Shown in pieces: positions 11,592-14,237 of a stretch of 20,535 bases of DNA. The DNA comes from a virus. Both the position numbers and the translations under genes were made by a program. Location of the stretch: the IMG/VR virus record IMGVR_UViG_3300050021_000188, positions 1-20,535 of that record; one strand, given 5' to 3'. Numbering within the stretch: position 1 is the first letter of the stretch; each line of letters starts with the position of its first letter. Below the pieces are notes generated by a model. That model searched no databases. It saw only the letters and a list, made by a program, of their open reading frames with translations, and was not told where the DNA came from.

Positions 11592-11731
11592 GCCCCTCCG
11601 GGGCAGGCCCCCGGCCATCGCCCAATAGCACCGCCCTTCGGACGAGCAGCTTCGCTGCTGGAGTATACTTCAGATTTTAGTATACAAGTAGGTACGAATT
11701 TTTCAAAAATTTGTATGGGGCCTCCCCGGCC

Positions 11732-11756
11732 ATCGAAAAAAGTTTTTCGATTTTTT
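11732..11756 (+). terminator. AT-rich hairpin with T-tract, possible terminator
   Basis: ATCGAAAAA (11732-11740) and TTTTTCGAT (11743-11751) form a 9-bp inverted repeat separated by AG, and T residues continue to 11756. It resembles a weak rho-independent terminator for the plus strand, though no plus-strand gene ends here. The stem is A/T-rich, so it may equally be a bendable DNA site. Confidence 0.35.
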
Positions 11757-11768
11757 GGGGGTGGGTAT

Positions 11769-11811
11769 GTAACTATATTAGTTACATATAGAATGTAACC
11801 ATAAGAGTTAC
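11769..11811. promoter_or_regulatory. Two tandem operator-like dyads GTAAC-N7-GTTAC
   Basis: Two 17-nt dyads have the same half-sites and spacing: 11769-11785 (spacer TATATTA, itself extending the dyad) and 11795-11811 (spacer CATAAGA). Their centres are 26 nt apart. Two more GTTAC half-sites lie at 11864-11868 and 11875-11879 in direct orientation. Repeated dyads of equal geometry in a divergent intergenic region are typical of repressor or activator binding sites. The binding protein is not evident in this window. Confidence 0.6.
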
Positions 11812-11934
11812 AGATAGAATTGGTAGCATAGTATGTGGCATGTGTCAAGTAAATAATGAGGGAGTTACTACTTAGTTACTGTTGTATACTTAGTACTGTA
11901 GTGAATAAGTGTGCGGAGTACTTGACGAGAGCGG

Positions 11935-11990: not shown

Positions 11991-12266
11991 ATGTATACCA
12001 TGCAGATTACAATTACACTCACAGATGCTCAAGAAACCGCCCTGTATATGATGGGCAAAGACGAAGATGCGCAGCAAGCAATCGCGCAGTCCACTTTCAC
12101 CGCGCGAGTCAAAGGCGACTTCAAACGGTATCGCGAAGCGGAGAAGAAAGTCAATGCAGGCATTTACGATGACTCATCCAAACGCGGCGCGAAGTGGTCA
12201 GAGTCCAAAGACGATTATCTCAAACGCATGGCTCAAGAATCGCTGGCTGTCATTGCAGAACTGTAA
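11991..12266 (+). CDS. Unknown small early protein, 91 aa
   Basis: This is the first gene of the rightward block. The ATG at 11991 has GGAG 4 nt upstream; the in-frame ATG at 12000 (MQITITLTDAQETALYMM) is 13 nt from it, so the exact start is open. The protein begins with a beta-like ITITLTDAQE segment and continues as charged helices (VKGDFKRYREAEKKVNAGIY, then SESKDDYLKRMAQESLAVIA). No Cys, signal peptide or membrane helix is present. I do not recognise the family. Position and size suggest an accessory early function. Confidence 0.7.
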   Translation: MYTMQITITLTDAQETALYMMGKDEDAQQAIAQSTFTARVKGDFKRYREAEKKVNAGIYDDSSKRGAKWSESKDDYLKRMAQESLAVIAEL

Positions 12267-12273
12267 CCTGCTA

Positions 12274-12311
12274 GTGCGCATATCCCAAGCATAGGTCTTG
12301 GACGTGCGCAC
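12274..12311 (+). other. Intercistronic hairpin
   Basis: GTGCGCA (12274-12280) pairs with TGCGCAC (12305-12311), and inside it CCAAG (12285-12289) pairs with CTTGG (12297-12301) around a 7-nt loop. It sits just after the stop of the first early gene and 4 nt before the GGAGG of the next. It has no U-tract, so it may be a processing or translation-control element. Confidence 0.65.
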
Positions 12312-12326
12312 AATGGAGGTCACAAT

Positions 12327-12575
12327 ATGCCACTACAATATCCGTACAATCCAAACGCGATGTATATTCGTATTGCACAAGCTGAAGCAATGCGAGAAAA
12401 GAATATGCGCCGTATGCGCTCCTGCGATGGACTCGCACGGCCACACAGCGTACACTATCAACCATCTCTGCGCGATTCCGCGCCTACACTCCACGATCTC
12501 GCACAAGGCACAAGCGTACATGCGCAAATGCTCGGCTTGCTACTCCGCCGTGCACAAGCTGAAGGGAGGATGTAA
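12327..12575 (+). CDS. Unknown basic small protein, 82 aa
   Basis: GGAGG lies 7 nt before this ATG. The product is Arg- and Met-rich (IAQAEAMREKNMRRMRSCDG) with a second helix of similar type at the end (MLGLLLRRAQAEGRM). It contains one Cys and no recognisable domain. Arg-rich helices suggest nucleic-acid binding, but this is only compositional. The stop codon TAA shares its last base with the ATG of the next gene, so the two are translationally coupled. Confidence 0.65.
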   Translation: MPLQYPYNPNAMYIRIAQAEAMREKNMRRMRSCDGLARPHSVHYQPSLRDSAPTLHDLAQGTSVHAQMLGLLLRRAQAEGRM

Positions 12576-12751
12576 TGGAGCACTTATTCGTATGCAATAA
12601 TTGTGAAGCACGCATAACCCTAGAACAGTTATGCTCGCTAAATCTGCCTTGTACAGAAGAACTCATGGTTTTCTGCCCTGATTGTGGCAATGATTCATTT
12701 ACGATCATATCTATAACAAAGGAGGAGTCATGCTCTTGCGACAATTCATAA
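12575..12751 (+). CDS. Small zinc-ribbon protein, 58 aa
   Basis: The ATG overlaps the preceding stop by one base (TAATG), with GGGAGG 5 nt upstream. The 58-aa product has CNNC at residues 7-10 and CPDCGND at 34-40, separated by 23 residues. This is a classic two-knuckle zinc ribbon that would bind one zinc ion. Extra Cys residues occur at 20, 26, 53 and 55. Small zinc ribbons are frequent in phage early regions and can bind nucleic acid or host proteins; the target is unknown. The downstream gene starts within its last 22 nt. Confidence 0.75.
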   Translation: MEHLFVCNNCEARITLEQLCSLNLPCTEELMVFCPDCGNDSFTIISITKEESCSCDNS

Positions 12752-12894
12752 CCTATCGCCTATCAGCACGCGCTGAACATCTCCAGCATGAGGCGCGTGT
12801 ATCTCTCTATCTCCGTCCATCTGCATTCCCAGCTCTCGCAGTTCGCTGGTATCTCGCAGCACGAATTGAGCGAATGCGTGCGAAGAACGTATAA
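12730..12894 (+). CDS. Unknown Arg-rich protein, 54 aa
   Basis: The ATG at 12730 lies inside the last codons of the zinc-ribbon gene and is preceded by GGAGGAG. The 54-aa product starts MLLRQFITYRLSARAEHL and ends AARIERMRAKNV. It is basic, helical and Cys-free. No family is recognised. Overlap and strong ribosome site support expression. Its stop codon is followed at once by the 3' end of the minus-strand candidate RNA. Confidence 0.6.
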   Translation: MLLRQFITYRLSARAEHLQHEARVSLYLRPSAFPALAVRWYLAARIERMRAKNV

Positions 12895-13118
12895 CACAAA
12901 TACTAAGTGTCTCATCGTTGGCTAACACACGGCGCACGCAACCTCTTTGTTATCAGCGCTATACACCCATCTCTGCCATCATATATGTTAGGTGGTCTAG
13001 ATGGGTGTGCCCGCGTGTCCGACCAACCTCTTCTCTCTCGTATTAGATTTCTCTCTATGCATTTCTCTCTAGCATTATCTCGTTTGTGCTAGATTTGAAT
13101 TTGTGCTAATGAGTGCTC
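12895..13118 (-). ncRNA. Candidate structured RNA, left copy of an inverted pair
   Basis: Read on the minus strand, this copy contains four blocks shared with the right copy: GGCACACCCATCTAG (13011-12997), AACATATATGATGGCA (12989-12974), TGATAACAAAG (12955-12945) and AGCCAACG (12923-12916). Separating segments differ but have the same lengths as in the other copy (7, 18 and 21 nt). The segment before the first block (GGTTGGTC, 13028-13021) pairs with GACCACC (12997-12991) after it, giving a 7-bp helix with one bulge where the right copy has a different helix. CCATC in the loop can pair with conserved GATGG downstream. In this copy only, AGATGGGTGT could instead capture ACACCCATCT. An upstream hairpin TCTAGCA/TGCTAGA is also present. 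The 3' end has a weak terminator-like hairpin (TGAG-ACA-CTTA then TATTT). The 5' end is uncertain. Confidence 0.6.
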
Positions 13119-13121
13119 TTG

Positions 13122-13150
13122 TATTATAAAAAAAAAATATTTTTATAATA
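13122..13150. promoter_or_regulatory. Central AT-rich palindrome with divergent -10 boxes
   Basis: TATTATAAAAA (13122-13132) and TTTTTATAATA (13140-13150) form a perfect 11-bp inverted repeat at the centre of symmetry between the two candidate RNAs. Each arm contains a perfect TATAAT, one on each strand pointing outward (plus 13144-13149; minus 13128-13123). No good -35 boxes are seen at 17 nt. It may be a divergent promoter for the RNA pair; a bidirectional terminator is the alternative, though T-runs outside the stem are lacking. Confidence 0.5.
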
Positions 13151-13155
13151 TATAT

Positions 13156-13379
13156 AGAGAAGAAAGCACAACTCTAATAGAGTATAGGGAAAGATTCAAT
13201 ACGAGCGAATCTGAGCATATGCGCGAAGCGCAGCATATCGAAAACAGACCTCGATAGGCATCGGCACACCCATCTAGCGAGGTCAACATATATGATGGCA
13301 TGGATCGAGACATCTTGATGATAACAAAGGGTTTGCGCGTTGCCTCGCACAGCCAACGACCGAACACTCGGTCTTTTTA
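13156..13379 (+). ncRNA. Candidate structured RNA, right copy of an inverted pair
   Basis: This is the mirror copy. Conserved blocks are at 13263-13277, 13285-13300, 13319-13329 and 13351-13358. The first block is the loop of a perfect 7-bp helix GACCTCG (13247-13253) with CGAGGTC (13278-13284). In the left copy the same helix has another sequence, so pairing is kept while bases changed. CCATC (13270-13274) can pair with GATGG (13294-13298) to make a pseudoknot. Upstream are hairpins AGATTC/GAATCT (13192-13212) and one with a GAA loop near 13217-13238. The RNA would end in the perfect terminator at 13358-13378. Opposite-strand frames here start at GTG without ribosome sites and are not taken as genes. 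Transcription start near 13156 is a guess from the -10 box. Confidence 0.65.
13358..13378 (+). terminator. Intrinsic terminator of the right candidate RNA
   Basis: GACCGA (13358-13363), loop ACAC, TCGGTC (13368-13373) and TTTTT (13374-13378) form a textbook terminator on the plus strand. No protein gene ends just upstream, so it points to a non-coding transcript. It also insulates the promoter that begins 5 nt later. Confidence 0.85.
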
Positions 13380-13382
13380 CTA

Positions 13383-13412
13383 TTGACACGCCTGTGGCGA
13401 TGGGTGTACTAT
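13383..13412 (+). promoter_or_regulatory. Strong sigma70-type promoter, possibly leaderless
   Basis: TTGACA (13383-13388, perfect -35) and TACTAT (13407-13412, 4/6) are separated by 18 nt. The expected transcription start is about 13419, which is the A of the ATG of the downstream gene. The message may therefore lack a 5' leader. Confidence 0.75.
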
Positions 13413-13418
13413 CTATAT

Positions 13419-14237
13419 ATGAACAAACGAGATCAGCAACGAGTTATGAGATACGATGAGGATATTGTGGAAGCAGAAGCATTGCTCGCGGAACAGTGTG
13501 AGATAGAATCTGCGTCTGACAATAAACTCTTGCTTGTATCTCGCGCGTATGAGCGTAAACTAGAGCGTATGCGTGCTGCACGTGCGAGGTTTATTCGTAG
13601 TTGTGGCCACGCTGCGAATCAGCAAGAGAGATATAATCTTATCATAGCGGAAAAACGTGCTGCTGTAGCGCGTGCTGTGTATGATTATTCGCAAGAGCTT
13701 GCGAGATATTCTGTGTTATGTGCTGGTGTTAGTATGCTCGCGGATGTCCAACGGGATGAGGATATGAAAATACAACATCAGCTTGTAATGCGAAAGAAGC
13801 GTATTATATCTGCACGGCAAGGCGCATTGGATCGGTGGATGCAGATAAATCCACATGATATTAGCGCACCTATGCCTGCGCGTGAGAATGAGGATGAGAT
13901 ATTAGCACCGCGAGAAATGAAAGTAAAACAACCGAATAACCGCGCGTTGATGACAATAGAAAATATGCCTGCGGATATGCAAGAAATTGCGCGTGCTAGT
14001 AGAGCAACATCAAATAGTATTAGCGTCAAGCAGGACACATATAGCGCGAGCTTTGCGCTACTCAACTCACAGCCTGCGCCTGATGCGTTTGCATTTACAC
14101 GCTCTGATATTGAACACACTGTAGATACGATGACGTTAGCGAATATCGCTGTGGATGTAGAAGTAGAACCAGAACGAGATGCAGAGTATATCAAATTCAT
14201 GCAAGGATTAGCAGTTGAAAGTGAGGAGATAAAATGA
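13419..14237 (+). CDS. Unknown coiled-coil-rich protein, about 272 aa
   Basis: I use the ATG at 13419 (MNKRDQQRVMRYDED) because the frame upstream runs through the promoter; the ATG at 13446 (MRYDEDIVEAEALL) is an alternative. No convincing ribosome site precedes either. The N-terminal half is Ala/Arg/Glu-rich and strongly helical (YERKLERMRAARARF, then YNLIIAEKRAAVARAVYDY), probably a coiled coil. The middle is basic, and the C-terminal third is polar with acidic end residues (VDVEVEPERDAEYIKFMQ). There is no known domain, Cys motif or membrane segment. It overlaps the next gene by 4 nt (ATGA). An early accessory function is inferred from location alone. Confidence 0.75.
   Translation: MNKRDQQRVMRYDEDIVEAEALLAEQCEIESASDNKLLLVSRAYERKLERMRAARARFIRSCGHAANQQERYNLIIAEKRAAVARAVYDYSQELARYSVLCAGVSMLADVQRDEDMKIQHQLVMRKKRIISARQGALDRWMQINPHDISAPMPARENEDEILAPREMKVKQPNNRALMTIENMPADMQEIARASRATSNSISVKQDTYSASFALLNSQPAPDAFAFTRSDIEHTVDTMTLANIAVDVEVEPERDAEYIKFMQGLAVESEEIK

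Follow-up and report, generated by a model that had tools for sequence, protein, structure and literature searches.

Architecture of the locus in the window

The stretch of DNA analysed here, the window, is a 20.5 kb phage contig from IMG/VR. Its left part carries head and packaging genes on the minus strand (TerL, portal and major head protein), and its right part carries an FtsK-like gene on the plus strand. A full layout is available from a related 47.8 kb contig (G001), whose two ends overlap by 127 bases, so that it closes on itself, and which has all of its early genes on the plus strand and all of its late genes on the minus strand. The genes form two long arrays, early and late, that diverge and have promoter-like sites of their own, and the locus described here sits in G001 between a few small plus-strand genes and the first larger early gene. 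Separately, between the late and early promoters of the window, the plus strand at 11700-11900 holds repeated GTAAC...GTTAC dyads and a perfect hairpin, ATCGAAAAA/TTTTTCGAT with T6, part of which is retained in relatives (11689-11766).

The original prediction placed at this locus two mirror-image arms with four common blocks and equal spacers, and we recovered all of these in the window (Table 1), the spacers being 7, 18 and 21 bases in both arms. The two hairpins and the terminator that it had described are also present. Its remark that no protein gene lies upstream was not strictly right, since plus-strand genes at 11991-12894 precede the left arm and stop where that arm begins. A blastn comparison of the window against itself recovered the arm pair with an E value of 9e-9, and a repeat search did likewise. 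The pair is the top long inverted repeat of the window, with a score of 325 against a mean of 120 (SD 25; 8.1 SD), the next-best long inverted pair reaching 189 (2.7 SD).

Table 1 Features of the locus, with positions in the window.
Feature	Position	Strand	Description
Left element (arm)	12895..13110	-	Read outward leftward; about 170-215 bases, non-coding; SW against right arm z 12.3; blastn core 12937-13011
Left blocks, mirror positions	13011-12997, 12989-12974, 12955-12945, 12923-12916	-	Sequence reading
Left hairpin	12991-12997 / 13021-13028	-	GG(T)TGGTC / GACCACC around shared loop CACACCCATCTAG; 7 pairs and one bulged T; alone not significant, p 0.33
AT-rich core	13115..13160	.	TTGTATTATA(A10)TATTTTTATAATATATATAGAGAA; sole such AT-rich stretch in scanned region
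Inverted TATAAT boxes in core	13123-13128 (-), 13144-13149 (+)		Outward-facing
Right element (arm)	13161..13358	+	Read outward rightward; SW alignment with left arm; blastn core 13263-13337
Right hairpin	13248-13254 / 13278-13284	+	GACCTCG / CGAGGTC around shared loop; 7 bp; stem p 0.055 against shuffled flanks
Right blocks	13263-13277, 13285-13300, 13319-13329, 13351-13358	+	GGCACACCCATCTAG, AACATATATGATGGCA, TGATAACAAAG and AGCCAACG, respectively; sequence reading
Intrinsic-terminator-like hairpin and T5	13358..13378 (hairpin 13358-13373, then TTTTT)	+	End of right arm; sequence
Promoter of first early gene	13383..13412	+	TTGACA-18-TACTAT; same promoter in 13 genomes checked
First early gene	13419..14237	+	272 aa; helical/coiled-coil protein, disordered C-terminal part

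Beyond the right arm, the order of arm, TTGACA promoter and gene for a helical protein recurred in the 13 genomes examined for it. The distance from the -10 box to the ATG is 6 bases in the window, L011, L014 and L032, and 7 bases in L042 and L049; on this spacing, the first early gene appears to be leaderless. The structure predicted for its product, with low confidence, consists of four long helices and a disordered tail, for which we found no PDB structural match and no recognisable DNA-binding fold; the gene used as a search query found nothing.

Distribution of the locus and joint change of its arms

A scan of viral contigs for the pattern CCATCT..CATATATGATGGCA gave six loci, all of them unrelated coding sequence spanning a constant 39 bases, and these were rejected. 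The comparison set was built from TerL relatives, with 80 of the 152 relatives of one TerL search taken in. The observation made in a single window is confirmed by this set and extends to a phage lineage. Relatives whose TerL identity falls as low as about 45-53% still have the AT-rich core at the same place; where a contig covers enough upstream sequence, the core usually lies 2.5-5 kb upstream of TerL. Its identity is 80-97% in close relatives, and in most distant relatives it persists as A8-A30 plus flanking AT; in a few relatives, such as L045 and L179, no core was detected at the threshold used. In most scanned regions a stretch of 93-100% AT is unique to the core, and pattern scans of all viral contigs with two forms of the core returned matches only from this lineage. 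The A-run of the core (8-30 A) was on the early-gene strand in every relative inspected that has one.

One distant carrier is the GenBank podovirus MW202554 (L186), which has both core and pair at a TerL identity of 32%. Its pair lies at 35650-36120 without annotation in the record, and its right arm contains a perfect DnaA box, TTATCCACA. Core and pair are also carried by a 47.7 kb contig that encodes TerL and was binned as Sulfuriferula sp. (JARLJL010000016.1; L142/L182); the bin is a possible hint at the host, or else the result of co-binning. No other inverted repeat scored higher than the pair anywhere in the window, G001, MW202554, G007 or the Sulfuriferula contig, where it reached 6.7-9.4 SD. 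Searching eight genomes with their own arms gave no third copy, so each has exactly two. The Saffermanviridae cyanophages PP, TR020 and A-4L resemble this lineage in their two-array gene order and related terminase; unlike it, they have no such inverted pair anywhere in their genomes. We searched the literature and found no description of the locus. Overall, the lineage is a large family of phages, uncultured and from soil and freshwater, that share one undescribed control region, and this region is an AT-rich core between two mirror-image, fast-changing elements of about 170 bases.

When the two arms of one genome were compared, both read outward, usually 100-200 bases aligned at 64-84% identity (30 genomes, a set that includes some near-identical ones). 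SW z-scores against shuffles were mostly 4-15, with 5 of the 30 below 3 and MW202554 at 14.8, and the control in the opposite orientation gave z mostly near zero. Among 26 distinct genomes, the mean score of a left arm with its own right arm was 209, against 95 with foreign arms. Since own-pair scores lie far above foreign ones, both arms of one genome change together. Blocks such as TGTCAAAAATTCCG and TGAAAACAAAGG reappear between genomes. In many relatives (L119, L105, L140 and L155, for example) we also noted GAGAGAGAG tracts just outside or inside the left arms, the 9-mer being present in 13 arms.

The arms are exchanged together with the neighbouring gene. The window and G001 have identical TerL and identical 16026-16559 proteins; between them the arms and the first early gene are replaced (about 25% identity for the gene), whereas the core and its surroundings, some 100 bases, are kept at 80%. 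Comparison of 12895-14211 with L040/L011 shows cassette exchange between phages whose TerL is 100% identical: both arms and the first early gene are swapped and the core is kept. Across 27 genomes, arm similarity followed first-gene similarity after the effect of TerL was removed (partial r 0.42, permutation p 0.0005), a correlation that physical linkage by itself could cause.

Coding, folding and transcription signals

Protein coding was rejected for the arms, because indel lengths modulo 3 were distributed 40/173/54. A gene pair in the opposite-strand (inward) frames was likewise discarded, since the indels are not multiples of three. The region between the flanking plus-strand genes is non-coding. 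The original prediction could name no RNA class with these blocks, which agrees with Rfam, where curated and permissive thresholds gave only sub-threshold, hairpin-like chance matches.

The folding signal was clearest among the closest genomes. In the window, L011, L014 and L032, the loops are common to both arms and the stems differ, which favours a folded strand, and hairpins around the shared loop beat shuffled flanks in these four (Fisher p 0.003 outward, 0.007 on the other strand). Across 23 genomes, helices were 1.5 times commoner than in column shuffles. A helix of one arm was still paired in the other in 63% of cases, the same as the 63% of the shuffles, and two-sided changes numbered 30 versus 22.6 in shuffles that hold a third fewer helix pairs. 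The same genomes showed no preference for G-U over A-C on either strand, and RNAalifold gave weak z-scores, with the opposite strand often scoring better. These tests use pairwise alignments of fast-changing sequence, which limits their power.

As a general signature, then, the claim that pairing is kept while bases change is not supported: pairing is retained at the shuffled rate and two-sided changes are not enriched. The lack of significant covariation in further homologues, which the prediction had said would refute it, has been realised in part, yet alignment error limits that test. A recurring 3' hairpin, TAAGNN-13 nt-NNCTTA, was found in some arms. A covariance model of it (R1, 6 sequences) recovered the arms it was trained on, picked up one further arm weakly (L019, E 0.54) and missed the others, which indicates that this hairpin is not universal. 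The terminator-like hairpin of the window was not seen by eye at the right-arm end of the relatives inspected.

The outward -10 boxes of the prediction are present as TATAAT in the window, and a perfect outward TATAAT stands on both sides in the window, L011 and L014; across the lineage, the left boxes do not exceed chance (Fisher p 0.84) and the right ones are no better than the inward control, so that outward transcription starting at the core lacks support over the lineage as a whole. The RNA reading of the prediction is therefore partly supported: the two outward-facing non-coding elements and the loop hairpins of close relatives stand, and selected structure across the lineage is not supported. 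At the level of sequence, the data support a paired element, and not yet an RNA.

Candidate functions of the locus

Our preferred reading, by a narrow margin and at less than even confidence, is a cis-acting DNA locus, in its likeliest form a bidirectional replication origin. It is suggested by the unique AT-rich core, the inverted polar flanks, the single locus per genome and the co-diverging neighbour gene, and the strand-neutral structure signal fits a DNA element. The core of this single-copy locus would be where the strands are likely to melt, and a polar recognition element would flank it in two inverted copies. Both arms may be bound by a factor of the phage, for which the helical product of the co-diverging neighbour gene is a plausible candidate, and this binding would open the core; replication would then start there, with forks leaving both ways along the early (plus) and late (minus) arrays. 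Herpesvirus oriS and oriL are palindromic origins with an AT-rich spacer. The present locus resembles them in its AT-rich centre, its inverted flanking elements and its position as one locus beside early genes; unlike them, it has arms that are far longer, polar and without short repeated boxes, and it is a candidate origin only.

Features sought at an origin were found in part. A single AT-rich candidate unwinding region with flanking elements is present, and no strand-composition switch occurs at the locus, the GC-skew minimum lying about 1.4 kb off, at the gene-orientation switch, with the plus-strand genes left of the core keeping positive skew. Since skew is confounded with gene direction, it gives no independent support for an origin. 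DnaA boxes are not enriched (0.20 versus 0.38 per kb); a phage-specific initiator would not require them. The repeat search found no iterons or direct-repeat array, and typical initiator-binding arrays are unlike these long, polar, non-repetitive arms. Shared loops with differing stems, as in the closest relatives, are unusual for protein-bound dyads, and the adjacent protein also counts against an origin in having neither a recognisable DNA-binding fold nor a structural match.

A divergent pair of RNAs is the main rival and only slightly less likely. Two outward promoters in the core would yield putative folded leaders that act in cis on RNA polymerase, in the manner of lambda nutL/nutR or HK022 putL/putR, for read-through of both long arrays, the early one on the right and the late one on the left, and one factor, perhaps the adjacent protein, would read the shared loops. 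In lambda-type phages, nutL and nutR have a loop sequence that is common within a phage, differs between phages and diverges with the adjacent N gene. Our arms likewise share loops within a phage and diverge between phages and with the neighbour gene; no boxA/boxB pair was identified in them, however, and whereas lambda N is a small arginine-rich peptide, the adjacent protein is a predicted long helical bundle whose gene has a separate promoter beyond the right arm. The HK022 sites putL and putR, about 70 nt each with a common sequence, lie downstream of PL and PR, where exactly two related, folded, cis-acting elements head divergent early transcripts (PMC9378689). The present pair is similar in number; unlike putL and putR, its elements measure about 170 nt, directly border a common core and vary strongly among relatives, and our tests of them did not demonstrate strand-specific conserved structure. 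As with nut and put sites, exactly two homologous, long polar units, each close to where one of the long arrays begins, point away from a putative promoter region. The loop hairpins of the four closest genomes, the paired TATAAT boxes in three of them, the module-like divergence with the next gene, the terminator directly after the right arm of the window and the recurring 3' hairpin also fit, but compensatory change is not enriched, strand preference and an Rfam match are absent, the RNAalifold signal is weak and often exceeded by that of the opposite strand, and the left -10 boxes stay at chance level. Moreover, both arrays already have promoter-like sites, and a leftward transcript would be antisense to 1-3 kb of plus-strand genes. 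It is unlikely that the arms are phage RNAs of a new class, transcribed as a divergent pair, with loops that co-evolve inside one genome and alongside the adjacent protein, and that such RNAs govern processive transcription of the two genome halves in this large lineage of uncultured phages.

The quasi-palindrome near the early/late junction might also be a concatemer-resolution or packaging site, recognised when concatemers are cut. Its place upstream of the terminase genes fits this, as do linear relatives such as cyanophage PP, whose record ends lie between late and early genes, but PP, TR020 and A-4L lack the pair, contig ends of relatives do not cluster at the locus, and 1-3.5 kb with plus-strand genes separate it from the terminase genes; we regard this role as improbable. 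Slightly more improbable is a neutral quasi-palindrome, its arms kept alike because replication switches template at the A-tract, so that likeness within a genome would be mutational. The likeness does span almost the whole arm, core-proximal part included, with transitions to transversions among mismatches near 1:2, like unconstrained sites; the conserved position and unique occurrence in a very deep lineage that includes MW202554 argue for selection, as against neutrality do the blocks TGTCAAAAATTCCG and TGAAAACAAAGG recurring between genomes. A rightward transcript through both arms could, in principle, fold into a giant hairpin serving as the 3' untranslated region or terminator of the small plus-strand genes, which stop at the left-arm start, and, being an inverted pair, the arms necessarily complement each other within one strand. 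The G-U test, however, showed no consistent bias (C/T 71 versus 77, with an A/G excess that tracks base composition); the giant hairpin between left and right arms was rejected on this test, and we consider it very improbable.

The preferred origin and the pair of control RNAs are the roles that the control region may have. The lineage has many members in viral metagenomes, and in the GenBank genome the locus is unannotated. The concerted change of the two copies, together with module exchange with one gene between near-identical phages, makes the question directly testable. A single-copy conserved control locus this large would hold the key to how replication begins in these phages or how their two gene arrays are operated.
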